51,306 nucleotides of DNA from NCBI RefSeq assembly GCF_000158195.2, contig NZ_GL987988.1, positions 496,226-547,531 on the forward strand, read 5' to 3'. This document shows, one piece after another, positions 4,201-51,306 of the stretch (within the stretch, counting starts at the first letter, position 1; each line of letters starts with the position of its first letter). The position numbers were made by a program, and so were the translations under genes. The notes under the pieces were generated by a model, which was given only the letters and a program-made list of their open reading frames with translations, was not told where the DNA came from and did not search any database. The DNA comes from Fusobacterium mortiferum ATCC 9817. Lineage in GTDB: Bacteria; Fusobacteriota; Fusobacteriia; Fusobacteriales; Fusobacteriaceae.

Positions 4201-5488
4201 CTTGTCCACCAATATCTAAGATAAAATCTACTTGGGGTTGGAAAAATTTAGCTCCCTTGTAGTGAGCAATAGTTTCTACTACTCCTTTATCTACTTTTAG
4301 AGCAGATTTTATAAGATTTTCTCCATATCCAGTTACACAAGAACCTTTTATTTTTATTTTATCATGTAATTTAGAATAAAGAAGCTTTAGATTATCTATT
4401 ATATTATCTAAAGGGTTTCCTTTGTTATGAGAATAGTATGAGTAAAGTATCTCTTTCTTTTCAGAGATAAGAACCACCTTTATAGTAGTAGAACCAGAAT
4501 CTATTCCAAGATATGCATTACCAGAATAATTTTCAATAGCTTTGTTCTCTATTTTTTCTTTTTCATGTCTTGATTTAAACTCTTCAAACTCTTCATCATT
4601 TGTAAATAATGGTTGAAGTCTTGAAGTTTCAGATGTATCTTTTTCATTTAATTTTAAGAATTTTTTTTGTAATTCCTCTAATGAGTAAGTATTATTATTT
4701 TCTTCTGAAAGAAAACCAGCTCCTTGAGCTACAAAAATTTGTGAATTTTTAGGGAAGATTACATCTTCAGGTGCAAGATTTAAAGTTTCAATAAATCTTT
4801 TTCTAAGCTCACTTAAAAAGAAAAGAGGTCCTCCTAAAAAAGCTACTTTACCAGTTATCTTTTTACCACAAGCAAGTCCAGTGATAGTTTGATTTACTAC
4901 TGCTTGGAAAACAGATACAGCAATATTCCCTTTTTTTACTCCCTCATTTACAAGAGGTTGTATATCAGTTTTGGCAAATACTCCACATCTAGCAGCAATA
5001 GGATAGATAGTGTCATATTCCTTAGCTAATTCGTTTAATCCTGTAGCATCAGTATTAAGTAGAGCAGCAATCTGGTCAATAAAAGCTCCAGTTCCACCAG
5101 CACAGCTACCATTCATTCTTTGGTCCATATCATTTTTAAGGAAAGTAATTTTAGCATCTTCTCCCCCTAATTCTATGGCAACGTCAGTTTCAGGGATAAT
5201 TACCTCGATAGCTTTTATACAAGCGATTACTTCTTGTACAAACTCTATTCCTATCCAACTTGCAATACCCATACCACTTGAACCTGTGATATTTATCTTA
5301 AAGCTGATATCTTCTCCATATTTTTCTTTCATAAATTTAAAGAAATCATCAAACATAGATTTTGTAGTCTCTCTTACATTTGATAGATGTCTTTGATAGA
5401 TAGAATAAACAATATTTTTTTCCTCATCTAAGCAGACGATTTTAACTGTTGTTGAACCAACATCTGTTCCAATAAAAAATTCTTTCAT
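1253..5488 (-). CDS. Acyl-CoA dehydratase activase / 2-hydroxyacyl-CoA dehydratase-related fusion
   Basis: This 1411-residue cytoplasmic protein contains two BadF/BcrA-type ATPase (activase) domains followed by a dehydratase-related region. Domain 1 (about 4-262) has GTDVGSTTVK, ELGGEDAKI and SCAGGTGAF. Domain 2 (about 326-580) has GIDSGSTTIK, DIGGQDMK and NEACSSGCGSF. The ASKHA phosphate loops are intact, and the domain 2 cysteines resemble those that bridge a [4Fe-4S] cluster in HgdC. Next comes a cysteine cluster (CGMCTNRC near 609-616), then a DUF2229-like part with GVVLCGRPYHCDKEIHHGIPN and an HgdB-like end. The family is widespread in anaerobes; most members have no known substrate. Start chosen from AGGAG seven bases before ATG 5488. 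It is not a standard two-subunit hydroxyglutaryl-CoA dehydratase, so its substrate should be left open. Confidence 0.85.
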   Translation of the reverse strand: MKEFFIGTDVGSTTVKIVCLDEEKNIVYSIYQRHLSNVRETTKSMFDDFFKFMKEKYGEDISFKINITGSSGMGIASWIGIEFVQEVIACIKAIEVIIPETDVAIELGGEDAKITFLKNDMDQRMNGSCAGGTGAFIDQIAALLNTDATGLNELAKEYDTIYPIAARCGVFAKTDIQPLVNEGVKKGNIAVSVFQAVVNQTITGLACGKKITGKVAFLGGPLFFLSELRKRFIETLNLAPEDVIFPKNSQIFVAQGAGFLSEENNNTYSLEELQKKFLKLNEKDTSETSRLQPLFTNDEEFEEFKSRHEKEKIENKAIENYSGNAYLGIDSGSTTIKVVLISEKKEILYSYYSHNKGNPLDNIIDNLKLLYSKLHDKIKIKGSCVTGYGENLIKSALKVDKGVVETIAHYKGAKFFQPQVDFILDIGGQDMKCLKIQDGVITSILLNEACSSGCGSFLETFANSLGMDIKEFAKLGLTSKSPADLGTRCTVFMNSKVKQAQKDGVEVADISAGLSYSVVKNTLFKVIKIKNKEELGKYIVVQGGTFLNDCVLRAFEKVSEREVIRPNIAGIMGAFGAALIAQEEAKENSTLMTLEELENFHYTTNLTRCGMCTNRCLLTIHKFESGENFISGNRCDNPVAKMKKNQAPNMFEYKYNRLFSYTPLELSKATRGEIGIPRVLNFYDSYPFWFTLLTELGFRVVLSDDSSKKLYESGIDTITSDSICYPAKLVHGHIMNLISKGVNRIFYPCVIFEEKEDKKSQNQFNCPIVMSYPEVIKNNMDIIKEKNIDMMIPVFSFENKEVLYKTVMEEFTKFGVTKPEVKLAVDKALEEKYNFRKDMQNRAKEIISELERTGKIGVVLCGRPYHCDKEIHHGIPNIINSFGIAVLTGDAVASLGSLDDELRVIDQWTYHSRLYRAATVVGKNPNLELIELNSFSCGIDAVTTDQVNEILTNHGKVHTLLKIDEISNLGAVKIRIRSLLAALEYKKNSVANVIKHKIEYKKAEFTKAMKKEYTILAPQMAPMHFDLIKHAFKAQGYNLVILPETQEALDCGLKYVNNDACYPSILVIGELISALQSGKYDLDRTAVIISQTGGSCRATNYLGFLKKAIKDAGFEKVPILSLNANGFEKQEGFSLSLPLIHKALIAVSYGDLLMKLLYHTRPYELNKGESDALYKKWNQQVIKNIHNGNFGEFKRNCKLIVDEFAKIEVSDEKKIKVGIVGEILVKFSPFANNDLANFIEQEGGEVYTSSLMNFIKYCIYSDIFLAEKFKGKMAGLKQRGALWVLDRYTAVLNDAISTHARFMREISIQETAKKTSEFISIGHQSGEGWFLMGEMIDFIEHGVPNIVCVQPFGCLPNHITGKGMIKRLREEYENVNITPIDYDPAYSEVNQLNRIKLMLSVAKKNMNQKIS

Positions 5489-5545
5489 AGTATTACTCCT
5501 TAAAATTTACTTTTTAAAATATTTTGATAAAAATTAAAGAGTTTT

Positions 5546-5884
5546 TTAAATTCGTAGTATGCGGGACTCATAACGAGTCAAAATGGTGTAATATCCTCCC
5601 TCATAAAGAATAGGAGAATACTCTTCATATTCAATAAATCTTTCAATTATAGGTTTTATCTCAACAGAATTTTTAGGTGTTCCAGCTCTAATAATATTTC
5701 TAGCAAAAATTTGTACCTTATTAAGTTCGATAAAACTATAACTTTCTGTTTCATCGTTACTATGTATCATATAGATAGCTTGATTTTTGTCGTAAAAGCC
5801 ATCAAACTCCATTTTAGGATTGATACTTGAACTAAAAAACAGAAGTAAACATGAAATGATAAAGTAAAATACTCTTTTTATCAT
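5546..5884 (-). CDS. Small exported protein of unknown function
   Basis: A 112-residue product with a hydrophobic N-terminal signal segment (RVFYFIISCLLLFFSSS) and a soluble remainder rich in Glu, Tyr and Ile. There is no lipobox cysteine at a convincing site. A strong AGGAGG site precedes the ATG. It sits between the HAD phosphatase and the activase fusion on the same strand (41 bp and 57 bp gaps) and may be co-transcribed with them. I do not recognise a family. Confidence 0.6.
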   Translation of the reverse strand: MIKRVFYFIISCLLLFFSSSINPKMEFDGFYDKNQAIYMIHSNDETESYSFIELNKVQIFARNIIRAGTPKNSVEIKPIIERFIEYEEYSPILYEGGYYTILTRYESRILRI

Positions 5885-36842: not shown

Positions 36843-37637
36843 ATGGAACAAATAGGAGAAAGAATATTAAAAACATTTTTTTTTAATTACTTAATACTAA
36901 ATGATGTTCATTTAATTGAAAGTTTAGTCTCTGAAAATTTTGTAGGAATTGGAACTAGTAAGTTAGAAATTGCTAAAAATAAGGATGAATTTTTAGAGAG
37001 CTTAAAGAATAGAATAAAAAATATAGGTGGAAAAGTTAGTTTTTATATAAATAATTATATTGAAAGAAACTTAGGAAGTATAATATCTTCATATTGTGAT
37101 CTAACAATTATATATTTTCATAAGGAAAAAAGAAGCTTGGAAACAAGGCTAACAACAATATTTTTTTATGAAGATGGAGATTGGAAGATAATAAGTATGC
37201 ATAATTCTATTCCTGAACTAAAACAGAATAAGGATGAGGTTTTTCCAAGAGAGTGGATATTGGAAGCTGAAAATTTAGCCAATATAGAGATATATTTACT
37301 TGGAAAATTTAAAAGAGGATTTTTTAAAACAAAAGATATAAACTATATAACTTATTCAAGTGTTACAAGGAGATCTACTTTCTTTTTAAGAAACTCAAGT
37401 AGTTTTGAAATTAAAAGAAATTTTTCAGAGGTTGAAGAGAGATTGGAAACAATAAAGTCCTTTTATAAATTAGATAGAGGAACTATTGTTAATATAGAGG
37501 CAGTAGAGATTTTAGATTTAAAAGAGGAAAGAATTATTTTTAAAAATAAACAAACATTATATGTAAGTAAGGTTAAATTAAAAGAATTAGAATCTAAATG
37601 GATAAGTATTAAAAATAAAAAAAATATAGAATTTTAA
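36843..37637 (+). CDS. SnoaL-like/LytTR one-component transcription regulator
   Basis: A 264-residue protein without a signal peptide. Residues about 1-130 form a SnoaL/NTF2-like domain (LVSENFVGIGTS, LETRLTTIFFYEDGDWKIISMHNSIP), which may bind a small ligand. Residues about 145-260 are a LytTR DNA-binding domain (IEIYLLGKFKRGFFKTKDINYITY, FYKLDRGTIVNIEAVEIL, SKVKLKELESKW). LytTR proteins bind paired direct repeats. Such repeats lie on both sides of this gene, so it probably controls itself and the pilus operon that starts 269 bp downstream. AGGAGGGG precedes the ATG. Confidence 0.82.
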   Translation: MEQIGERILKTFFFNYLILNDVHLIESLVSENFVGIGTSKLEIAKNKDEFLESLKNRIKNIGGKVSFYINNYIERNLGSIISSYCDLTIIYFHKEKRSLETRLTTIFFYEDGDWKIISMHNSIPELKQNKDEVFPREWILEAENLANIEIYLLGKFKRGFFKTKDINYITYSSVTRRSTFFLRNSSSFEIKRNFSEVEERLETIKSFYKLDRGTIVNIEAVEILDLKEERIIFKNKQTLYVSKVKLKELESKWISIKNKKNIEF

Positions 37638-37747: not shown

Positions 37748-37750
37748 AGA

Positions 37751-37785
37751 AGTACTAGGATGTTTGTAACGCTCTAGTACTTTTT
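37751..37785 (+). terminator. Terminator overlapping the pilus promoter
   Basis: AGTACTAG (37751-37758) pairs with CTAGTACT (37774-37781), followed by TTTT. It begins 3 bp after the predicted -10 box of the pilus promoter, so it would end read-through from the regulator gene while transcripts started here would lack part of the left arm. Confidence 0.65.
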
Positions 37786-37906: not shown

Positions 37907-38620
37907 TTGAGATATATTTTGATATTTTTATTTTTATTAAAAACAATTAGTTTTTCATTTTTAATAGATAGTATTGATTTTGATGAAGAGGTAGGTGGAA
38001 ATGGATATAGAGAGTATAAAATTTATAACCAGTCAATGCATAGAGCAATATATAAAGTGAAGATAAGTGGAGTTGGCGATATTGATATAACAAAAGATAT
38101 GTCAATATACCCTAATATATTGAGTCTAGACCCAAATACATATGGCGTATTAAAAATTTATGGTGGAAGTAGTACTAATTTACCTACAGGAGAATATTCT
38201 TTCAAATTAACTTTTACACCAATAGTTGTTCCAGAACTAAAAAAGGGAAAGGAAGATAAAATAACAGGTGGTTCTACAATTGGATTAGTTCCTGAGATTA
38301 TTATGACAGCCCACGTAGGAAATCCTAAAAGAGAAGAGACCTTAGATGTAGAAAACATACAATTTTATACAAAGGAAAATAAAAAGCTAGTATGTAAGAT
38401 GGATGTTATAAATAATTCACATGCAAGTATAACCTTGGGAGCCCAGTTTAAAGATAGAGAGAGAAATAAGGCTGATTCCAAAAGGTTAGGAAGAGTTAGT
38501 GGAAATAGCAGAGAAACTTTTGAAGTTGAAATTAATAACTTTAATGCTGGAGATGACATAGTCTATATAGAGCTATATAATACTCAGAAGGGTGTTTTTA
38601 TAAATAAAAAAATAAAATAA
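37907..38620 (+). CDS. PapD-like periplasmic pilus chaperone
   Basis: A 237-residue exported protein with signal peptide RYILIFLFLLKTISFSF. The mature part resembles the two Ig-like domains of fimbrial chaperones: IYNQSMHRAIYKVKISG, SIYPNILSLDPNTYGVLKIYG, then a second domain from about 140 (NIQFYTKENKKLVCKMDVINNS). Its expected role is to hold pilus subunits in the periplasm and bring them to the usher. Start is TTG 37907, with AAGGG and AAAGGAG upstream; no later start keeps the signal peptide. First gene of a nine-gene run ending at 48490. Confidence 0.72.
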   Translation: MRYILIFLFLLKTISFSFLIDSIDFDEEVGGNGYREYKIYNQSMHRAIYKVKISGVGDIDITKDMSIYPNILSLDPNTYGVLKIYGGSSTNLPTGEYSFKLTFTPIVVPELKKGKEDKITGGSTIGLVPEIIMTAHVGNPKREETLDVENIQFYTKENKKLVCKMDVINNSHASITLGAQFKDRERNKADSKRLGRVSGNSRETFEVEINNFNAGDDIVYIELYNTQKGVFINKKIK

Positions 38621-38641
38621 AAAATAAGGAGAGGAAGCAAG

Positions 38642-39229
38642 ATGAAAAAATTATTTTTAGCAGCAATGTTAGTTGTGGGAGCAACATCGTTTGGAGCAGT
38701 TGTAAAACCAGTTAATCAAGCACAAGGAACTACAGATGCACTATTACCACTAGTAGTTACAGGAAATGTAATAGAACCAACAGATTTAATGTTAGAGGTT
38801 ACACCAGTATTAAATGCTGGTCCAGATGGAAAATCATTAGCTCTTGATTTTGGAGATTTAATAAAAGGAAAATCTAAGCAAACATTAAATGGAACATTTA
38901 TAGCAAGATTATTGACTAGTGCTGGAAAAGAATCATATTTTGCAAATGAACCAACATATAAAATAGTTAAAGCTGATGGAACTGAAGTAAGTGATAACAA
39001 GCAAACTAATACATTAAATGGTGTTAAAATTGACTATAGTTTAGCACAACCTAAAGGGGAGGCAGGAGTAAAAACAAATAGAGGAACTGTAGTAGTTTCA
39101 GCAGATGCTACAGATGTAGGTGTTACGACTGGATTATTTACAGATACTGGATTATCAGTAAAAATATCAGTACCTAACCAAAAACCAGCAGAAAATACAT
39201 CTGATATTGAAGGAGCTAAAACATTTTAA
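38642..39229 (+). CDS. Major pilus subunit (predicted)
   Basis: A 195-residue exported protein: signal peptide KKLFLAAMLVVGATSFGA, then a beta-rich Ala/Thr/Gly-containing sequence with few aromatic residues, as in pilins. It has no Cys. The block EPTDLMLEVTPVLN, FGDLIKGKSKQTLNGTFIARL recurs in the last gene of the operon, identifying a subunit family. The strong AAGGAGAGG site and a stable hairpin pair after the stop codon would favour higher expression than the genes downstream. The N-terminal extension VVKPVNQAQGTTDALLPLVV could be the donor strand. Confidence 0.7.
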   Translation: MKKLFLAAMLVVGATSFGAVVKPVNQAQGTTDALLPLVVTGNVIEPTDLMLEVTPVLNAGPDGKSLALDFGDLIKGKSKQTLNGTFIARLLTSAGKESYFANEPTYKIVKADGTEVSDNKQTNTLNGVKIDYSLAQPKGEAGVKTNRGTVVVSADATDVGVTTGLFTDTGLSVKISVPNQKPAENTSDIEGAKTF

Positions 39230-39236
39230 TTATTAG

Positions 39237-39288
39237 AGAACCCTAAATGGGTTCTTCTGCTATATAGACAATATCTATATAGCAGAAG
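39237..39288 (+). promoter_or_regulatory. Double hairpin after the major subunit gene
   Basis: AGAACCC (39237-39243) pairs with GGGTTCT (39249-39255). A perfect 15-bp stem (39254-39268 with 39274-39288, loop CAATA) follows at once; the two share 2 bases. There is no T-run. It probably protects the subunit mRNA end or gives partial attenuation before the usher gene. Confidence 0.65.
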
Positions 39289-39322
39289 GACTCATTAATA
39301 CTAATTTGGAGAAGATTTTAAG

Positions 39323-41977
39323 ATGAAGAAAATAATGTTTTTATATGCATATCTTATTCTATCTTTACACTCATTTAGTATAGAGTATAGTTTGGAAGAG
39401 TTAACAGAGATGTATAATCAAAATATACTAACAAAAGAAGACTATGAAATATTAAAAAGTCAAATGGAAAAAATAGAGGAAAAAGAGGGGTTATATTTAT
39501 TAAAGCTAAATAATAGATATGTTTCAAATAATTTTATTGTAAGAGAGAGAGAAAATCTTAATTACTTAGACTTAACAAAGTTTATTGAGATAATTGGATT
39601 AAAGAATGTTGAGCAAACAGAAAAAGAGTTGACTTTATACATAGGAGAAGAGTTAGAAAAGATTGATATTGATTTATTGAAAAATAGAATATATTTTCAA
39701 AATAGGGTAATAGAAAACTCTTTTTTTCAAGAAAATGATAGTATTTTTCTAAAAGAAGAAACATTTAAAGAGCTATTCTTAAATCATTTAGATATAGATA
39801 AACAAAACTTAAAAATAACAATGTCCTTGAACTTCACAGAACCAAAAGATATTTTAAGATTGCTTGAGTTTAAAAAAGAGAGCCTAGAAAAGAAAGAGAT
39901 AGAAAAAAATAATGAAAAAGTTATAAAAGGGACAAGAGAACTTTTTGCACCTGGATATTTAAGAATTAAAGGAGAGCAAGAATTTGATAAGGGTTCAACT
40001 GAAAAAAGCTATAAAAAAGACTGGAATGGAGAGATAAGTTATCAAGGAGCACTTTTATATGGAGAGTTTACAGGAAAATATGATTTAAGAAATAGCTATT
40101 TGGGAACTCTAAACCTAAACTACAAAGATATTTGGAAAGAACATACCTTTACTATTGAGAATAGAAGGGTAAAAAAGGAAGATAATAGTACTAGTAGAGA
40201 GTGGGGATTTTCATTTTATAAAGATAAGGGATACTTTAATCTAGGAGAAAAAGTAATAATAAGAGAGAGTGTTCCTATTGGAAGTAGGGTAGAGTTACTA
40301 TATATGGGAACTCCCATAGAGATAAAAGATGATGATAATGGGGTTGTAATTTTTGACAATGAATTAATAAAAACAGATAAAACTTATGAATTAAAAATTT
40401 ATACGAACGACAACCAGATATATACAAAGGAGATTAAACCAACTCAAGATTACAATAGGCAAGCTAAGAATGAAGTAAAATACTCTTTATATCTAAACGA
40501 AGATAAGTATAGAGGAGGTAAATATAGAGGAATAGCAAATGCTTATTATGGAGTAACTAATAGGTTGACAATTGGAGCAGGTGTTCGTAGAGAGATTGAA
40601 TTATTCAACGATTATAGTGAAGCAAAACCTAAAAATTTTTATATAAACTATGGGAGTTTAGAAACAATATATGGTGGAGTATATAATAGCATTGGTTATA
40701 CTTTAAAATTAAATGGAGAAAAAGCTTTTTCCAAATTGAGTAACAATGAAAAGAACTATGAGGATAATTATACATATACAGGACTTGGAGAAATTAGATA
40801 TAAAAAGTATAGTGCAACTTTTAGTAAGACTCAATATGGTAAATATTATTCTCAAAAAGAGATGAATAATTTTAGATTCAAATATGATGTAAATGAAAGC
40901 CTAAGGTTAGAATATAATTATGACACTCAGAAAGATTATCGAGGGAAAATAGAAAAAAATTCTAAGATTGGATTATCTGCAGATAAAAAATATAAAAATA
41001 TTTTGTTTATGGCAAATACACAAGTTGATTTAATTGATTCTGATAAAAATATTTATAGTTTAGGAGCTTATTATGCAGGCTTTCAACATATGACTATAAA
41101 ATTAGAAAATAGGTGGAAAGATTCAGGAAGAAATTATGAGAGCATTTTGACTCTTTATAATAATAATTTTAAAGGTCTTTTTGATGTTTCAACAGAATTG
41201 AAATATGAGAAAGAAAAGAAAGATATGATAAGTTTGAGAGTTACTATGAAGTTAGATGATTTATTTACAATAGGAAGTAGTTTAGCTAGTAACGGGGAGA
41301 GAAATTATAAAATTGGAGTTGATAAAGTTGTTGACTTAAAAAATCCTAAGCTTAAACTTGATAATACTGATGTATCAAGAGCTGATATTGTCACTTTTAT
41401 TGATGAGAATGGAAATGATAAATATGATAAAGGAGAAAAATTTCTAAAAGGAGTTGAGATAACTGTAGGAAAACAAATAGCTGTTACAAATGAAGTAGGG
41501 AAAGCAACTCTTTTTGCATTATCCAATGGAATGGAACATGAATTAAATATAGTTATAAAAAATCCTAACTATACATTAAATAATGAAAAAATAAGAATAT
41601 TGAGTAATTACAGCTCAAATGTAAAAGTATATATTCCAGTAAAGCCACTTATTAATATAGGAGGAAAGATAGAATTTGATAAAGATATTGAAGGAGTAGA
41701 ATTTGAAAAGCAAGATTTTTATTCTAATCTTTTAATTGAAGTTATGGATAAAACAGGGAAAATATTGGAATTAGTCGCTCCAGATAATACTGGATATTTC
41801 GACATAAGTGGACTTATCCCTGAAGAGTATCAATTATCAGTAAAATATACTGGGATAAAGTACAATTTACCTCCTCTTATAAGAGAGTTTTGTTTAAATT
41901 GTAAAAATGTAGAGTCTAGAAAAGAGATTACATTAAAAATATCTAAAAAAGATATTGAATTATATGGTGAATTATAG
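39323..41977 (+). CDS. Usher-like outer-membrane protein
   Basis: An 884-residue protein in the size range of pilus ushers. Signal peptide KKIMFLYAYLILSLHSFS; N-terminal domain to about 200; then a barrel with the usher-type plug region (VIIRESVPIGSRVELLYMGTPIEI, TYELKIYTNDNQIYTKEIKPTQDY) and ANAYYGVTNRLTIGAGVRREIE. The end carries a Ca-binding SdrD-B/Cna-B-like domain (FIDENGNDKYDKGEKFLKGVEITV) and a further beta domain with two Cys (FCLNCKN). It would secrete and polymerise the subunits through the outer membrane. Divergence from classical FimD is large, so the assignment rests on both motifs and gene order. Confidence 0.7.
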   Translation: MKKIMFLYAYLILSLHSFSIEYSLEELTEMYNQNILTKEDYEILKSQMEKIEEKEGLYLLKLNNRYVSNNFIVRERENLNYLDLTKFIEIIGLKNVEQTEKELTLYIGEELEKIDIDLLKNRIYFQNRVIENSFFQENDSIFLKEETFKELFLNHLDIDKQNLKITMSLNFTEPKDILRLLEFKKESLEKKEIEKNNEKVIKGTRELFAPGYLRIKGEQEFDKGSTEKSYKKDWNGEISYQGALLYGEFTGKYDLRNSYLGTLNLNYKDIWKEHTFTIENRRVKKEDNSTSREWGFSFYKDKGYFNLGEKVIIRESVPIGSRVELLYMGTPIEIKDDDNGVVIFDNELIKTDKTYELKIYTNDNQIYTKEIKPTQDYNRQAKNEVKYSLYLNEDKYRGGKYRGIANAYYGVTNRLTIGAGVRREIELFNDYSEAKPKNFYINYGSLETIYGGVYNSIGYTLKLNGEKAFSKLSNNEKNYEDNYTYTGLGEIRYKKYSATFSKTQYGKYYSQKEMNNFRFKYDVNESLRLEYNYDTQKDYRGKIEKNSKIGLSADKKYKNILFMANTQVDLIDSDKNIYSLGAYYAGFQHMTIKLENRWKDSGRNYESILTLYNNNFKGLFDVSTELKYEKEKKDMISLRVTMKLDDLFTIGSSLASNGERNYKIGVDKVVDLKNPKLKLDNTDVSRADIVTFIDENGNDKYDKGEKFLKGVEITVGKQIAVTNEVGKATLFALSNGMEHELNIVIKNPNYTLNNEKIRILSNYSSNVKVYIPVKPLINIGGKIEFDKDIEGVEFEKQDFYSNLLIEVMDKTGKILELVAPDNTGYFDISGLIPEEYQLSVKYTGIKYNLPPLIREFCLNCKNVESRKEITLKISKKDIELYGEL

Positions 41978-41985
41978 GAGAAAAA

Positions 41986-42543
41986 ATGATAAAAAATAAT
42001 TTAAGTTTATTTATACTTTTTTTAGCTTTATCTCAAATAATTTTTTCCAATGATGAAGAATTAGAAAAGTTTATTGAAGTAGATAAGGAGTTATATAATA
42101 AGGAAAAATTAGATAAAATAAAAGAATTAAATTTACCAGAAGTCAATAAAGAAAAAAGATACATAACAAAAGAGGGGGTAAGAGAACTTGAAAAGGTATA
42201 TAATGTATATTTAGATATGAAAGTGAATGTCTATGTTCCTCTAGAAATAGTTTCTGATATTAATATTTATGCTACTGTTTTAGGAAATGAGATTTTAGAA
42301 ATTCCTTTTGATTTAGAATTGAATAGAAGACCTGAAAAGAATAATTATTATTCTATAAAATATAGTGATATGGTATTTGATATCGATAATGATGGCGAGG
42401 AAGATACTTATATTTATTCACCTAAGTATATAAATGAAAGGATAGAAACGAATAACTATGTCAAAATATACGGGGAAAGGATATCAAATGAGGGAAGCTA
42501 TAAAAAACGTATCTATATGACAGTGGAAATAGGAGAGGAATAG
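41986..42543 (+). CDS. Exported pilus-locus protein with a Ca-binding-like loop
   Basis: A 185-residue exported protein with signal peptide LSLFILFLALSQIIFS. An acidic helical stretch follows (NDEELEKFIEVDKELYNKEKL). The second half is beta-rich and has DIDNDGEEDTYIYSP, a calcium-loop-like motif. It ends in alternating polar and hydrophobic residues (YKKRIYMTVEIGEE), as subunits often do. It is 8 bp after the usher gene. Minor subunit or assembly factor; not recognised as a named family. Confidence 0.55.
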   Translation: MIKNNLSLFILFLALSQIIFSNDEELEKFIEVDKELYNKEKLDKIKELNLPEVNKEKRYITKEGVRELEKVYNVYLDMKVNVYVPLEIVSDINIYATVLGNEILEIPFDLELNRRPEKNNYYSIKYSDMVFDIDNDGEEDTYIYSPKYINERIETNNYVKIYGERISNEGSYKKRIYMTVEIGEE

Positions 42544-42561
42544 TTAGAACGGAGGACAAAA

Positions 42562-43029
42562 ATGTTCAAAAAATTAGTAATTTTAATATTAATTTTATCA
42601 ACTACAACCTTTGCAAAAATAATGGTAAAAGTTTATGAACCTATAAGGTTTAAAGATATAAATAGTAGTGAAATTGGAAATATAGTAACAGGTGAAGGAA
42701 TAATAGAGATTTTTACTGATAATTTCGAGGAGGATTTTGGTAAAAAAGTAATTTTAAAATTTCCATCAGATGGGTTAATGACAAATTCAAAAAAATGGTT
42801 AAATGTTGATAAATATATGATAGATGAAGGGAATAGAGAGATAGATATTATACAAGAGAGAAGAAGAGTAAAAGTATATGCTATCTTAAAAAAGACACAA
42901 ATAGATGACAAAACATATACAGCTGAGCAATTAGAAGGAGAATATGTAGGATATGCTCCAGTTATAGTTGAAGTATATGGACGGTTGATTAAAAATCTAG
43001 AAAGTGATAATAAAAATAGCGAGGAATAG
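42562..43029 (+). CDS. Exported pilus-locus protein, possible minor subunit
   Basis: A 155-residue exported protein (signal FKKLVILILILSTTTFA) that is beta-rich throughout: KIMVKVYEPIRFKDI, GEGIIEIFTDNFEEDFGKKVILKFP, RRRVKVYAILKKTQ, YVGYAPVIVEVYGRL. CGGAGG precedes the ATG. The pattern fits a small pilin or adaptor. No family recognised. Confidence 0.55.
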   Translation: MFKKLVILILILSTTTFAKIMVKVYEPIRFKDINSSEIGNIVTGEGIIEIFTDNFEEDFGKKVILKFPSDGLMTNSKKWLNVDKYMIDEGNREIDIIQERRRVKVYAILKKTQIDDKTYTAEQLEGEYVGYAPVIVEVYGRLIKNLESDNKNSEE

Positions 43030-43031
43030 AG

Positions 43032-44507
43032 ATGAAGATATTATTAGTTTTATTTTTATTAATATCTAAATTAAGTTTTTCATATATTAATATTTATCCA
43101 GTAAAATTTGTAGAAAGAATTGATAATGAGGGAGCTTATAAAAAATTTGTGCTTTATAATAAAAGTGAAGATAGAGTAAGATATAGGTTTTATTTTGAAA
43201 AAACTAATAAGAAAATGGATATGAGTGATTGGTGTAGTCTATCTTTAACTTCATTAGAATTAGAACCTCTAGAGAGAAAAGAAATAGTAATTTTGTGTAA
43301 AGCTCCAGAAAATGTTTTAAGTGGAAGATATACAGCCAAATTAGCAATAAAAGAAGTAGATGTAGTTTTAAAGGATAGGAAGTTACAGCATAAAAGATAT
43401 TTAACAAAATTAATTTTGAATATGGTTGGATATGTAGGGGAGAGAGGAGTAGCTATGTTAAAAAGTGAAGAGCTCAATCTCGAAGGTATAAAATTTATAG
43501 ATATTAATGATAGTAATTTAATATTTACTAGGCAAGGTAGAACTTACATATATAATCTTGAACAGAAAAAAATTCAAAATAATTATGATGGGGAAATTTT
43601 AGAGAGAGTAAATGATAGATATATATTGAAAATAAAAAATAGATATGAACTTAGAAATCTGGATTTTTATGATAAAAGTTTAAGCTTTGAAGAGGTCTTA
43701 GAGAGTGGAAATATAGGAACCTTTATTGTTAAAAAAGATAATAAATATGGAGTTATAAATAAAGATGGTAAGATTTTGATTGATTTTAAATATAAAATTT
43801 TAGAGAAATTTAAAGGAGAGTTTTCTATTTATCAAAACTTTGATAATCATAAAAAAGGGATAATTGATTCAAAAGGAAAGATTTTATTAAACCCTATTTT
43901 TGATGAACTTTATATAACGAAGAATGGAAATTGGTTAGGAAAGAAAAAAGGACTCTATTTTACTTCTAATATGAAAGTTTTAAAAATAGATAGAATTATT
44001 CCAAATAAAAAAGATATTTTAGTTTATGAAAAAGACAATAAATATGGACTTATAAATTTATTTAATTTGAAATTTACTGAAAATATTTATGAAAATATAA
44101 GTCAAGAGGTAGATACTGGGTTCATTATAGAAAATGAAGGGAAATATAGTTTAATAAAGAGTGGAGAATTTTTTGAAAATAAAATTGAAAATGATGTAGA
44201 TACTCAACATGATTATATTATAAAAATTGATGATGATATATATGGATTAGGTAATTTTAAAAGAAAAAGTTTGAAATACTATAACCTTTATACTGGAGTT
44301 AAGTTAGAACAAGAATTTAAAAATTTAAAAAAGGGAAGTTCAGAGGTAGTAGTTGGAGAAGTAAAAGATGAATACTACTTTATAAGAAGCAGTGATAGTA
44401 AAATAATAGCTAAAACAAAGAAAGATAATTTAATATATATCAATAAAAAATATATTCTTCTAAAGGAAAAAATAGACTACAAATTAATAAATATACAGGA
44501 GATTTAA
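43032..44507 (+). CDS. Chaperone-like domain fused to WG-type repeats
   Basis: A 491-residue exported protein. Residues about 20-135 resemble the first Ig domain of pilus chaperones (KFVLYNKSEDRVRYRFYFEKT, LELEPLERKEIVILCKAPENVLSGRYTAKLAI). From about 150 it carries WG-like beta repeats: KKDNKYGVINKDGKILIDFKYK, then NHKKGIIDSKGKILLNPIF and EKDNKYGLINLFNLKFTE. The combination is unusual. The repeats could form a propeller-like docking surface in the periplasm. It begins 2 bp after the previous stop codon, so it is tightly coupled. Confidence 0.6.
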   Translation: MKILLVLFLLISKLSFSYINIYPVKFVERIDNEGAYKKFVLYNKSEDRVRYRFYFEKTNKKMDMSDWCSLSLTSLELEPLERKEIVILCKAPENVLSGRYTAKLAIKEVDVVLKDRKLQHKRYLTKLILNMVGYVGERGVAMLKSEELNLEGIKFIDINDSNLIFTRQGRTYIYNLEQKKIQNNYDGEILERVNDRYILKIKNRYELRNLDFYDKSLSFEEVLESGNIGTFIVKKDNKYGVINKDGKILIDFKYKILEKFKGEFSIYQNFDNHKKGIIDSKGKILLNPIFDELYITKNGNWLGKKKGLYFTSNMKVLKIDRIIPNKKDILVYEKDNKYGLINLFNLKFTENIYENISQEVDTGFIIENEGKYSLIKSGEFFENKIENDVDTQHDYIIKIDDDIYGLGNFKRKSLKYYNLYTGVKLEQEFKNLKKGSSEVVVGEVKDEYYFIRSSDSKIIAKTKKDNLIYINKKYILLKEKIDYKLINIQEI

Positions 44508-44509
44508 AA

Positions 44510-44899
44510 ATGAAATATTTCAAATTTATATACTTTGTTTTAATATTATTTTTAATAAGAGATAATATCTTTGCAATTTCTATCGATTCTCTTGATTTTA
44601 ATCAAAAGTTAAAAAAAGGGGAAAAAGTTGAAAAAATAATGACGATTGCAAATAATAGTAATGAAACTTTAGAATATATTTTAGCAATTGATGGAACTAA
44701 AAACATAGGAATTGATCATAAAAAATTTAGTTTAAAGTCTAAAGAAACTAAAAGAATCAGTTTTAAGATAGTAGCAGAGAGAGAAGTAGGAGATAAAGAT
44801 TTTTTTATAATAATAACAGAGAGAAAATTGGAAAAAATAGATGGAATTACTACAAACTTTAGGTATAGAATAAAACAAAAATATACAGTTGTAGAATAA
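44510..44899 (+). CDS. Single-domain chaperone-like exported protein
   Basis: A 129-residue exported protein. After its signal peptide (KFIYFVLILFLIRDNIFA) comes one Ig-like domain like the first domain of PapD chaperones: IDSLDFNQKLKKGEKVEKIMTIANNS, IDHKKFSLKSKETKRISFKI. The second domain is missing. It starts 2 bp after the WG-repeat gene. It may serve the large adhesin gene that follows. Confidence 0.6.
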   Translation: MKYFKFIYFVLILFLIRDNIFAISIDSLDFNQKLKKGEKVEKIMTIANNSNETLEYILAIDGTKNIGIDHKKFSLKSKETKRISFKIVAEREVGDKDFFIIITERKLEKIDGITTNFRYRIKQKYTVVE

Positions 44900-44928
44900 A
44901 ATGAATATAGTTTCGTAAGGGGATAAAA

Positions 44929-47900
44929 ATGAAAAAAATTATACTTATATTTTTATTGTTATCAAGTTATTTAGTATCTTTTTCAGAAATAGAACAGGAA
45001 GATGTAACTAAAAATCCATTGAGAGAGGTAACAACATATACTACAGCTCGTATAAGAGAGAAAGCAATACTTGATTTAACAGTAGAAAAACTTAATATTA
45101 GGGGGATAACATATTCTAAGTTAGAGGATGGAAATATGGTATTTGAAATAAATAAAACAGAGGGAATAATACCTAAGTATCTTGTAACTACTTCAACAGA
45201 TTTAATTCCTAGGGATATTAAAGTAAATGGTAAAAATATTAATAGAGATACAAAAGGTAAAAAGTTAGAGTTTACTTATAAAGAAGATATAGAAAACCTA
45301 AGGGATAACATTTACATAGAAATAGCTCAAAATTTTACCCCACCTTTGTATATTTCAAAACTTGATAGCAAAACAGGAAAATTATTAGAAGTATATGAAT
45401 ATAAAGAAATACCAAAGACCAGAAGAGCAAGAAGTACAGGAACAGTTAATCCTGGAAATACTACTTTAAATAGTTTTTATTTAGGAAAGATGATACCAGG
45501 TGAAATTCTAGAAAAAGGTGGTTTTTCTATGGATGGAGGAAAGGAGTATACAGAGTGGTTTAATGGCATAGAGGGAGGATTTGAAAATAAATCTATGACT
45601 TTTAATAAGAGAGACACTTCACAAAATATACCAATTAATGCTACAGTATCAGTTTGGTGGGATATAGAATTACTAAAAGGGTATACAATAAATGATGTTT
45701 GGGAATTTGATAAAACAAAGCAACTTACTGGAGTAAGTGATTCTACATCTTCAAAAATAGCTCATAAAGTTATTTATGCAGCTGATTGGAGAGGAACATG
45801 GTGGACATCAGTTCCACAAGTAAAATTGTATCATGGTTTTACAATAAATATTCCATCTAGTTATAAAAATAAAGCATTTGGACTTTATGGGATAAGAGAA
45901 TATGAAATTCCAGGAAGAGTTTTACGTACAAGTGATAAAAAGGGAAATATTTATGATATTACCACTCCAGAACTTATTGAATTTTTAGTTCAAAGAGATC
46001 CAAGAACTATAAATGTAAGAGTAGTTAGAGAATCAAATCCAATTATTACAATGGGTGGACAAGTATATTCTAAATTCAGTTTAAATAATTTTTCACAGCA
46101 TGGCTATAGTTTTAGGTTTAGCTATAATACAGCTGGAAAAGATGCTGGGAAAGGAATAAGCATAGGTCCTTATGATGGATTACTGATTCCAACAAATTTA
46201 CCCTCAGGAACTTATGAAATAGATGTAGTAGCACAATTGTCAGGGATTAATGATAATTTACAAATTGGAGGACAACCAGATAAAATTATCATAGAATATG
46301 AAAGACAACCTGATATTTTAACTCTTAAGGAGTTAGATTTAAGAAGTTTTCTAAGTAATACTTGGGGACGTTGGAAAGATATTTTTGCAGAGTTAAAAGC
46401 TTATGATGGGGACTCAAATAGCTCAGGAGAAAAATATAGTTTTAAAGAGCAAATACTTTCTGGTCTAAAATTTGATTTGAAAAAAACCAAGAAGATAAAA
46501 CTTTTTAAAGAGGGAATAGAAGTAGCTAATAGTATCTCTCATAGTAATGGAAGAGTTGATGTAAATTATGAAGACTTGGGTTTTGGGATAGATGGTGGAG
46601 AACTTTTAGGAGAGTTTTTTATAGATAAGAAAGGTTATTATTACTTTGGAGATGCTGAATATAGACTTGATTTTTATGATGAAGAGGATAGATTATTTGG
46701 ACGAATGAATATCTCTGTAATAAAAGATAGGGGAATAGATATTGGAAGTGTTAGTTATGAGGTTGATAATCTATTAATAGATTATATGAAAGCTACAGGA
46801 ACAGGACAGTTTTTTATTGGAATGTCTGATAATATTGGAGCTTTCCAACAAAATAAGTATAAGGATTTAATAATTAAAGGAAGTGGAAGTTATATTAACA
46901 GTGAGATTACTTCCATTATTCCTAAAGAAGTAGTAAATGTTACTGAAAATGGAACTGCTAATTTAGGGTTTAAAGTAAAATCTAATAGTAGACAAATAGA
47001 TAGAGGGGCAGGAGGAGGACAAATTAGAATTTCATATAATAGAGATAATTCATCAAGAGAGGTAATTTATTATAATTTGATAAATACTGCAGTTACTTTA
47101 TCAGATCTTCAAGATAAAATTATATTTAATCTTAAAACTTTGAATGAAAGTAATTCTTATAGTGATAGTTTCTATACTGGATTTCAAATAGATGATGGAA
47201 GAGTTTATGAGATGAAATATGAGTTTGTTAAATCTACTAAAACTTCATATAAAGAGGCTAGTTATACAATAGATACAACAGATTTTCAAGTTGGGAAAGA
47301 GTATACTTTTGATTTATCAACAGGTGATGAGATAGTAGCTAATGGAAATACAACTAAAAAGAAATTAACAAAATCGGGAGAAGTATTTGAATATTCTCTT
47401 TTAGGAAATTCTAATCCTGATATGGCAGCCTTTACAGTAGAAGATTTAGCATCTAAACTTTCAACAGCAGGTTTAGATAATTACACTATAAAACTTGAAA
47501 AAGATAGTACTAATAGAAAAACACTATTAAAAATTAAAAAGAATTCTAGTGTAAAATTAGAAAATAAAAAGCTAGAAGGAAAGATTAATTTTTACGATAT
47601 AACTGTAGGAAAGATTACATTAAATATCTCAGATAAAGGGCCATCTTTTGAGTTAATAGATGATGGAGAGTTAGATTTTGGAATTTTAACATACGATTCA
47701 TACAATACTTATGTAAAAGGAGAAAAGATATTTTCGGTAAAAAATCCGAACTCATATCCTATTACTTTCACACTACAAAAAAATTCTGGAATATTGACAA
47801 GTGTTTCTAGCTCTACTAGTACAATTCCTGTAGAAAATCTTAAAATAACCCAAAGTAAAAAAACTCCAATAAATGGAGTTAATACATTTTTACTAGAAGG

Positions 47901-47991
47901 GTATGCTAAGCCATATCCAAATATGGCCTCAGGAGAGTATACAGGAGAGATAATGATAGATATTACAATTGATACAACTAGTTCCAATTAA
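44929..47991 (+). CDS. Large exported adhesin-like protein (predicted pilus tip)
   Basis: A 1020-residue exported protein with signal peptide KKIILIFLLLSSYLVSFS. It is beta-rich with many aromatic and charged residues, and has no membrane segments after the signal. A run of basic residues (KTRRARS) near 163 is a possible cleavage or linker site. The C-terminal ~100 residues (FELIDDGELDFGILTYDSYNTYVKGEKIFSVKN, MASGEYTGEIMIDITID) look like a pilin domain that could dock into the fibre. Large adhesin plus pilin domain is the layout of two-domain tip adhesins. Receptor unknown. Confidence 0.6.
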   Translation: MKKIILIFLLLSSYLVSFSEIEQEDVTKNPLREVTTYTTARIREKAILDLTVEKLNIRGITYSKLEDGNMVFEINKTEGIIPKYLVTTSTDLIPRDIKVNGKNINRDTKGKKLEFTYKEDIENLRDNIYIEIAQNFTPPLYISKLDSKTGKLLEVYEYKEIPKTRRARSTGTVNPGNTTLNSFYLGKMIPGEILEKGGFSMDGGKEYTEWFNGIEGGFENKSMTFNKRDTSQNIPINATVSVWWDIELLKGYTINDVWEFDKTKQLTGVSDSTSSKIAHKVIYAADWRGTWWTSVPQVKLYHGFTINIPSSYKNKAFGLYGIREYEIPGRVLRTSDKKGNIYDITTPELIEFLVQRDPRTINVRVVRESNPIITMGGQVYSKFSLNNFSQHGYSFRFSYNTAGKDAGKGISIGPYDGLLIPTNLPSGTYEIDVVAQLSGINDNLQIGGQPDKIIIEYERQPDILTLKELDLRSFLSNTWGRWKDIFAELKAYDGDSNSSGEKYSFKEQILSGLKFDLKKTKKIKLFKEGIEVANSISHSNGRVDVNYEDLGFGIDGGELLGEFFIDKKGYYYFGDAEYRLDFYDEEDRLFGRMNISVIKDRGIDIGSVSYEVDNLLIDYMKATGTGQFFIGMSDNIGAFQQNKYKDLIIKGSGSYINSEITSIIPKEVVNVTENGTANLGFKVKSNSRQIDRGAGGGQIRISYNRDNSSREVIYYNLINTAVTLSDLQDKIIFNLKTLNESNSYSDSFYTGFQIDDGRVYEMKYEFVKSTKTSYKEASYTIDTTDFQVGKEYTFDLSTGDEIVANGNTTKKKLTKSGEVFEYSLLGNSNPDMAAFTVEDLASKLSTAGLDNYTIKLEKDSTNRKTLLKIKKNSSVKLENKKLEGKINFYDITVGKITLNISDKGPSFELIDDGELDFGILTYDSYNTYVKGEKIFSVKNPNSYPITFTLQKNSGILTSVSSSTSTIPVENLKITQSKKTPINGVNTFLLEGYAKPYPNMASGEYTGEIMIDITIDTTSSN

Positions 47992-48001
47992 AGGAGAGCA
48001 G

Positions 48002-48490
48002 ATGAAAGGAAGATATTTGTTAATATATTTATTTATAATTTTTTCTAGCTTATTTGGATCAGATGGGAATATTACTGTAAAAATGAAAGCAAAGGTTTTA
48101 GATCCTACAGATCTTTATTTAGAGGTTATTCCAATCACCAATGCTATAGATGATGGAAGTAAGATGTATTTTGATTTTGGAGAATTAGTAAAAGGAAGTA
48201 AACAAGAGTTAGTTGGAAAGTTTCAAGCTAGGTTAATGAGGGGAGGAGTTGCACAAAATATTGAAAACGTTAAAGCTAGTTTAATTAAAGAAAGTTCCTC
48301 CCAAGAAGAGAAGAAAATAGTTTCATTGTTAGATCAAACTGACTTGACATATATATTAAGTGGAGAAACAGAAAAGAAAAAATATAATGGAAGTATTAGA
48401 ATAATAGCTGATACTTCTAAAGGTAATAGTACTGGGAGATTTATAGATAATAGTGTAAAAATAAAGGTGTTAGTAACAAATAATAATTAG
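48002..48490 (+). CDS. Second pilus subunit, paralogue of the major subunit
   Basis: A 162-residue exported protein (signal RYLLIYLFIIFSSLFGS). It shares with the 38642 subunit the block DPTDLYLEVIPITN, FDFGELVKGSKQELVGKFQARL, and a similar end (GSIRIIADTSKGNSTGRF, VKIKVLVTN). ATG 48002 follows AAGGAGAG and precedes the signal peptide; the upstream ATG 47969 overlaps the adhesin gene. Its distal place suggests a minor subunit such as an anchor or adaptor. Confidence 0.72.
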   Translation: MKGRYLLIYLFIIFSSLFGSDGNITVKMKAKVLDPTDLYLEVIPITNAIDDGSKMYFDFGELVKGSKQELVGKFQARLMRGGVAQNIENVKASLIKESSSQEEKKIVSLLDQTDLTYILSGETEKKKYNGSIRIIADTSKGNSTGRFIDNSVKIKVLVTNNN

Positions 48491-48493
48491 AAT

Positions 48494-48530
48494 AAAAAGC
48501 TAAAGAGAGTCTTTACTTCTTTAGCTTTTT
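48494..48530. terminator. Bidirectional terminator at the end of the pilus operon
   Basis: AAAAAGCTAAAGA (48494-48506) pairs with TCTTTAGCTTTTT (48518-48530), 13 bp. It separates the pilus operon from the converging dehydrogenase gene. Confidence 0.85.
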
Positions 48531-48563
48531 ATATTATATTTTTATTTTTAATATATAATTATT

Positions 48564-50961: not shown

Positions 50962-51306
50962 CTAACGGGCAAGAAGTCGCCCACCTCTATAGGTGGTGCG
51001 ATGAATTGCCCTATTGTTTTTTAGAAGACAAAGTGATATAATACAATCAGTAGATATATAAAAATATGAGTAAAAACAATGGAATTAGATAGTAATTGTC
51101 ATTCAGTATTTTTGCTGTATTATCACTTAGTTCTTGTAGTAAAATATAGAAGAAATGTATTTGATGACACAATTTCTGAATTTGCTAAAGATATGTTTGT
51201 AAGAATTGGAGTTCCGTATCATATAACTTTAGTACAATGGAATCACGATAAAGACCACGTACATATAATGTTCAAAGCTCATCCTAAAACAGAATTGACT
51301 AAATTC
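50962..51306 (+). mobile_element. IS200/IS605-type element, left end
   Basis: TTTAAC (50956-50961) is followed by a foldable left end: GGGCAA (50967-50972) pairs with TTGCCC (51006-51011), with an inner stem CCACCT/AGGTGG (50981-50996). This and the tnpA gene define an IS200/IS605 element that inserts 3' of a short target and makes no duplication. The right end is outside the window. Confidence 0.8.
51079..51306 (+). CDS. tnpA: IS200/IS605 transposase TnpA (cut by window edge)
   Basis: The first 76 residues of a Y1 HUH transposase: SVFLLYYHLVLVVKYRR near the start and NHDKDHVHIMFKAHP, in which HVH is the metal-binding HUH motif. The catalytic Tyr lies beyond the window. The usual length is about 130-150 residues. 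It makes and rejoins single-strand DNA at hairpin ends. TATAAT lies at 51036-51041. Confidence 0.88.
   Translation, partial: MELDSNCHSVFLLYYHLVLVVKYRRNVFDDTISEFAKDMFVRIGVPYHITLVQWNHDKDHVHIMFKAHPKTELTKF

Follow-up and report, generated by a model that had tools for sequence, protein, structure and literature searches.

The window studied here is a stretch of 51,306 nucleotides of the genome of Fusobacterium mortiferum ATCC 9817 (contig NZ_GL987988.1, positions 496,226 to 547,531, forward strand), and the system in question is an operon of nine consecutive open reading frames (ORFs) on the + strand at window positions 37907-48490, encoding proteins of 237, 195, 884, 185, 155, 491, 129, 1020 and 173 amino acids (aa; Table 1). 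As an earlier note on this DNA had described, all nine ORFs are found there and each protein starts, by eye, with a short basic and then a hydrophobic segment resembling a Sec signal. It is likely, with a probability that we put at roughly 0.85, that the operon uses the chaperone-usher route to assemble a pilus-like fibre carrying an adhesin at its tip, and we hardly doubt that the machinery itself is of the chaperone-usher kind. This reading is carried by the usher fold seen in a predicted model, by the homology of the chaperones and by the conservation of the operon among relatives; the usher, as modelled, is its firmest part.

Table 1. Features of the putative chaperone-usher locus (window positions)
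Feature	Position	Strand	Basis
Regulator with SnoaL_3 and LytTR DNA-binding domains	36843..37637	+	Pfam LytTR 1.2e-11, SnoaL_3 1.6e-10
Hairpin between regulator and operon	37748..37784	+	Fold z -3.26; short T run
First chaperone P237, two-domain, periplasmic	37907..38620	+	Profile family whose relatives pass PapD_N
P195, probable major pilus subunit	38642..39229	+	Profile family (40 proteins, signal peptides removed)
Outer-membrane usher, 884 aa	39323..41977	+	AlphaFold2 (AF2) model, FimD/PapC structure matches
Usher barrel, residues 208-671, 24 strands	39944..41335	+	AF2 strand list
Usher plug, residues 304-371, between barrel strands 6 and 7	40232..40435	+	AF2 model
Usher C-terminal beta domains, residues 684-881	41372..41965	+	AF2 model, VIA-align
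p185, conserved core gene	41986..42543	+	Profile found in 21/98 genomes
p185 DxDxDGxxD loop, invariant, calcium-binding-like	42379..42405	+	Invariant alignment columns
p155, conserved core gene, weakly subunit-like	42562..43029	+	Alignment; hhalign
P491 fusion, one-domain chaperone (~1-140) and WG-repeat domain (~160-481)	43032..44507	+	Pfam WG_beta_rep 1.6e-6
P129, one-domain chaperone	44510..44899	+	Profile family
Large adhesin, 1020 aa, probably at tip	44929..47991	+	Conserved start and end
Adhesin pilin-like domain, residues 913-1012	47665..47964	+	Profile coordinates
Second subunit P173, 162 aa from likely ATG	48002..48490	+	30 per cent identical to P195
Probable operon terminator	48492..48532	+	Fold z -3.86, U-rich tail

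The usher

The AF2 model of the usher was made from 15 alignment rows (predicted local distance difference test, pLDDT, 78.4; predicted template modelling score, pTM, 0.55), and its strands were counted from the strand list of the model. It has 24 long strands in the barrel, a strand-rich, plug-like insert that separates strands 6 and 7, and two beta domains after the barrel. In FimD and PapC the plug likewise lies between strands 6 and 7. When the model was compared with the PDB by Foldseek, ranks 1-16 were all FimD or PapC (best E 1.3e-21), with about 10 per cent identity in the structural alignments, and the first LptD followed at 1.5e-6. Among the matches listed by VIA-align, FimD and PapC took ranks 1-12 with Z 14.3 to 16.6, the best being FimD 9fw9_D (Z 16.6, root-mean-square deviation 6.6 over 454 residues, model residues 201-775). 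The usher-like barrel proposed in the earlier note, for which structure prediction had been suggested as the check, is thus borne out. Barrels of the LptD and TonB type also occur in the structure lists, ranking below the ushers, and one could imagine that an LptD- or TonB-receptor-like barrel with Ig-type partners serves another route of export or display. We give this explanation almost no weight, considering the plug position, the C-terminal domains, the Foldseek values (1e-21 versus 1e-6 for LptD) and the PapD-type chaperones in the same operon. An LptD- or TonB-type identity of the barrel was rejected on its Foldseek separation from FimD and PapC.

The first 200 residues consist in the model of a helix pair (with a weak Pfam likeness to SHOCT, 0.045), a beta domain and a long helix. 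This part and the end of the protein are barely covered by VIA-align, and PapC_N has no Pfam match in the window usher.

As judged from profiles, the sequence link to classical ushers is an indirect one that runs through distant fusobacterial ushers. Relatives with E below 1e-50 are here called close ushers. Their profile aligns with that of the distant fusobacterial ushers at an hhalign value of 100, and the distant ushers align with E. coli FimD/SfmD/YehB/YraJ at 75.8, while 20 column shuffles gave no more than 0.2. Of the 98 Fusobacteriota genomes, three have a match to the usher family PF00577 that passes its cut-off, and eight have one that reaches E 1e-3; at the usher locus of one of the three (L103), a chaperone of the window family (3.5e-24) and a match to a subunit profile that includes signal peptides (2.3e-10) lie beside the usher. 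A search seeded with the L103 subunit, minus its signal peptide, recovered no protein but the subunit itself. Sequence searches of the PDB gave no match for the window usher itself, one irrelevant match for profile A1 and eight matches for profile A4, four of them PapC (E 0.009 to 0.15).

Distribution and conservation of the operon

Usher matches were found in 29 of the 98 Fusobacteriota genomes, all of one family (f1) and none in the other sampled families; 22 genomes have close ushers and seven distant ushers only. The conserved operon of the close relatives is likewise present in 22/98, again all in one family. In another collection, 15 of 19 loci belong to Cetobacterium, uncultured Fusobacteriaceae and one Fusobacterium metagenome-assembled genome. 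The remaining four (Bacteroidia, Shewanellaceae and two other bacteria) match mainly usher residues 657-840, and three of these have a chaperone of the window family nearby (L083, L084, L085). At the Shewanellaceae locus L085, which has many DUF4402-type subunits, a 2097-aa protein with a CotH kinase domain (L085 10798-17091; Pfam 2.7e-36) is adjacent.

The neighbourhoods of 35 distinct close ushers from 20 genomes were counted, the counts being lower bounds owing to contig ends and incomplete flanks. Upstream of the usher there is a two-domain chaperone in 35/35 and a subunit in 33/35. The p185 gene directly follows the usher in 32/35 (two of the other three have no downstream gene on the contig), and p155 lies within four genes of it in 31/35. 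Further downstream, a long protein (at least 380 aa, unlabelled or adhesin-like) occurs at 25 loci, a one-domain chaperone at 11 and a WG protein at nine. The gene set is therefore conserved beyond chance. Genome G048 has two operons of this type placed back to back (L036 5908-19208), and by eye the 192-aa gene between them may be a regulator.

The source genome itself has four usher places: the window, a paralogous locus (L003) with an usher of 37 per cent identity and nearly the same gene order, an open distant-type locus that also encodes a chaperone, subunit-like proteins and a partner of 293 aa (G000:C2:720265-722784; L100 8251-10791), and a place where the usher lies in two frames with internal stops and the chaperone in two pieces (G000:C1:171254-173778; L101 7228-9854). 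Having several such loci in one genome, one of them with a broken usher, would suit the idea that the window holds a decaying or silent copy, perhaps unused. None of the nine window genes is interrupted, and the usher and p185 retain their conserved residues; we therefore regard such decay as very unlikely.

Chaperones and the WG fusion

The two-domain and one-domain chaperones form a single profile family (hhalign 99.9 to each other and 99.9 to the distant ones). PapD_N passes its cut-off in 19/98 Fusobacteriota genomes. It is just reached by the first chaperone of the operon of the same type in genome G030 (L040), and the chaperones of G020, G014 and G007 have E 1.8e-4 to 5.3e-4. Compared with E. 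coli sets by hhalign, the chaperones align best with EcpE (92.5, 182 columns), followed by EcpB (30.0) and the FimC type (11.5), and the one-domain chaperones also align with EcpE (85.8 over 104 columns). Homology through relatives thus supports the presence of a two-domain PapD-like chaperone in the operon, as the earlier note had read it. The basic clamp of PapD consists of Arg8 and Lys112. In the chaperone alignment A5, which is not anchored on PapD, no Arg or Lys falls in invariant or near-invariant columns, and a PDB search with the A5 profile gave six matches, none of them a pilus chaperone.

The one-domain chaperones extend no further than the stretch aligned with the end of domain 1, and they could therefore keep the strand that holds the subunit. 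A chaperone stands directly before the usher at 26 of the 35 loci and a subunit at the other nine. Eight of these nine (the eighth being L067) have a one-domain chaperone downstream, L034 being the exception. P491 residues 1-158 have their closest matches in the second L003 chaperone (43.6 per cent identity) and in these one-domain proteins. Because of this pattern and this likeness, it seems that in the branch of the window the second chaperone was reduced to a single domain by loss of the other, and the chaperone part of P491 seems to be a reduced version of the second chaperone of the relatives.

In P491 the chaperone and the WG domain are joined in one frame of 491 codons, and the fusion described in the earlier note is thereby upheld, both by the Pfam match to the WG repeats and by the likeness to the second L003 chaperone. 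In relatives the WG protein has its own gene, often beside a one-domain chaperone (chaperone and WG protein at L036-L040: 142+297, 139+417, 142+401, 136+179 and 152+408 aa). Besides the window and L003, nine more loci of the set have a WG homologue. The fusion points to a joint action of chaperone and WG domain in the periplasm.

Subunits and the large adhesin

The two subunits that had been suggested to be paralogous are indeed related, P173 being 30 per cent identical to P195, but they are not adjacent, as they occupy the second and the ninth place in the operon. The P195 family shares the motifs DFGxLxxG and GxFxD (alignment A8). Profiles seeded with P173, with signal peptides removed, reach P195-type proteins and two adhesin ends (4.2e-6 and 5.7e-4), and P195 aligns with the adhesin end at an hhalign value of 69.8. 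In BLAST comparisons with other large operon proteins, the adhesin shows similarity only in its residues 1-197 and 870-1017. Its last approximately 100 residues, compared without the signal peptide, align with DUF4402-type subunits of the distant loci (hhalign 96.7 per cent; controls at most 0.3), and the paralogous L003 adhesin has a Pfam match to DUF4402 at its end (0.002, below cut-off). Profiles therefore support both the subunit family and the pilin-like C-terminal end that the earlier note had seen in the 1020-residue protein. The adhC-seeded profile without signal peptides collected 69 proteins, and its weakest members were not used because chaperones entered at E about 3e-4.

When the PDB was searched with profiles of DUF4402-type and other distant-locus subunits, CS1 CooA and CsuA/B made up the top four of eight matches in one search, and FimG, CsuA/B and F1 antigen five of seven in another. 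These matches (E 0.02 to 0.7) are individually weak but mostly of the right kind. Profile A3 found nothing useful in the PDB.

The same machinery could also make a thin or afimbrial adhesive coat, or display a large adhesin on the surface, in the manner of the F1 capsule or Afa, instead of a long pilus. The window has only two shaft-type subunit genes, one of the profiles matches the F1 capsule antigen weakly, and the large operon proteins of relatives, of up to 2129 aa, could work without a long shaft. A built fibre is the better fit for a tip-type adhesin that is a protein of its own and has a pilin-like end, and for the several subunit genes at some loci (four in L040), and we consider a coat or simple display unlikely.

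The core proteins p185 and p155

The p185 gene is present in 21 of the 98 genomes, that is, in 21 of the 22 with close ushers and in none of the seven with distant ushers only, and the lone genome with a close usher and without p185 (G024) is cut at a contig end. p185 thus marks this lineage. Its residues D132, D134, D136, G137, D140 and T141 are invariant in the 16 rows of alignment A6, and we take the DxDxDGxxD stretch to resemble a calcium loop, so that p185 may bind calcium. The family of p155 ends in EGEYVGYxPV (alignment A7). At L003 a LysM-type protein (7.6e-23) stands at the position expected for p155 (L003 12090-12560). PDB searches with profiles A6 and A7 gave nothing useful.

Regulator and flanking features

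The locus extends beyond the coordinates of the earlier note, since the regulator gene in front of the operon belongs to it: a relative occupies the equivalent position in the paralogous locus (L003 5620-6222), and among the 639 ORFs of the examined loci the SnoaL/LytTR profile matches only these two. By eye, the window gene is open across a T run (36880-36900), where the L003 regulator (5431-5620) loses its frame; slipped-strand phase variation of the regulator at this run is possible. The hairpin behind the regulator, which has a similar counterpart at the equivalent place in L003, is probably a terminator or attenuator of the regulator. For the last gene the ATG at 48002 is a more likely start than the TTG at 47969, which overlaps the adhesin gene.

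Among the ten locus proteins Pfam cut-offs were passed only by the regulator domains and the WG repeats, and NCBIfam gave no relevant family for the locus proteins. A promoter scan stayed close to the shuffle level (104 versus a mean of 88.3, standard deviation 9.5), a repeat scan of the A+T-rich region found nothing notable, and Rfam and tRNA scans of the window had no matches. At 51079-51306 the start of an ORF runs off the window end, presumably that of an IS200/IS605-type transposase.

Comparison with known systems

The E. coli common pilus (ECP, ecpA-E) comes closest in plan: a regulator is followed there by subunit, chaperone, usher, adhesin and chaperone. The same order is found in most relatives of the window operon, and the window-family chaperones are closest to EcpE. 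In contrast to ECP, operons of the window type carry in addition a leading chaperone, p185 and p155 behind the usher, one-domain chaperones and the WG domain, and the window has no two-domain chaperone between subunit and usher. Neither does the usher profile match EcpC (0.7), nor do the subunits match EcpA. As the usher is not measurably nearer to EcpC than to FimD, we do not file it in the alternate (alpha) clade. With type 1 and P pili (FimD, PapC) the system shares the usher fold of 24-strand barrel, plug and C-terminal domains, and it differs from them in the low identity of the structural alignments, the lack of a Pfam usher match and the low chaperone value against the FimC type. Likeness to the CS1/CFA-type (alternate, alpha) and Csu (archaic) pili comes from the weak matches of related DUF4402-type subunit profiles to CooA and CsuA/B, and runs through relatives rather than through the window subunits. 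The DUF4402-type usher loci of Fusobacteriaceae and Shewanellaceae (L025, L033, L085) have homologous ushers and chaperones; in contrast to the window they carry many subunits per locus, and no p185, p155 or WG is labelled beside their ushers.

The earlier description of the system as far from classical types consequently stands for the sequences, with no Pfam match to usher, chaperone or fimbrial families in the window, but not for the gene order, which is that of ECP with added genes. The plan is therefore less exotic than the sequences. The new features are the one-domain chaperones, the WG fusion and the two lineage-specific core proteins, p185 and p155. In passages of PMC4827864, the fimbrial usher family is given for Proteobacteria, Spirochaetae, Cyanobacteria and Deinococcus/Thermus and not for Fusobacteria. 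No paper on a chaperone-usher pilus of fusobacteria, Cetobacterium included, came up in a literature search that covered few subscription papers, which does not prove that none exists.

Interpretation

Several results weigh against a chaperone-usher pilus. No usher, PapD or fimbrial family of Pfam matches any of the ten locus proteins at E up to 5, and PapD_N does not match the window's own P237. The close-usher profile reaches hhalign values of 2.7 against the classical set and 0.7 against the EcpC set (n=4 each), and in VIA-align LptD has a Z of 14.3, which is also the value of the lowest usher among the top 12. For P195 (A8, nine rows) the AF2 model has a pLDDT of 39, and the subunit profiles match neither FimA- nor EcpA-type sets. 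The hhalign value of P195 against DUF4402-type subunits fell from 96.5 to 18.3 once signal peptides were stripped. That of p155 likewise fell, from 94.2 to 29.7 per cent (109 columns), and because of these losses the initial connections of both proteins with those subunits were rejected as evidence. For p185, hhalign gave no link to subunit families beyond the signal peptide.

If the operon builds a pilus-like fibre, the subunits would reach the periplasm by Sec, be held there by PapD-like chaperones and be passed to the FimD/PapC-like usher, presumably by donor-strand exchange, to leave the cell as a surface fibre. P195 and P173 would form the shaft, and the 1020-residue protein, which ends in a pilin-like domain, would be the tip adhesin and bind its target with the variable middle part. 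p155, and perhaps p185, may be minor subunits or partners of the usher. P129 and the chaperone part of P491 would act as one-domain chaperones, the latter replacing the second two-domain chaperone of relatives, with the WG domain sitting where the C-terminal domain was. More tentatively, and with considerable doubt on our part, the operon could represent a separate chaperone-usher lineage of Fusobacteriaceae with a changed hand-over, in which part of the chaperones are single-domain and keep the subunit-holding strand, one is coupled to WG repeats, and two proteins, one of them with an invariant calcium-type loop, are obligatory in the usher or the fibre.

Should the pilus reading be true, fusobacteria and the related Cetobacterium would have a class of adhesive pilus that is off the usual list of their adhesins, and standard profile libraries would be missing a whole lineage of ushers. 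The one-domain chaperones would make the purpose of the second chaperone domain directly testable, and p185, p155 and the WG domain would be defined targets in the search for new assembly factors.

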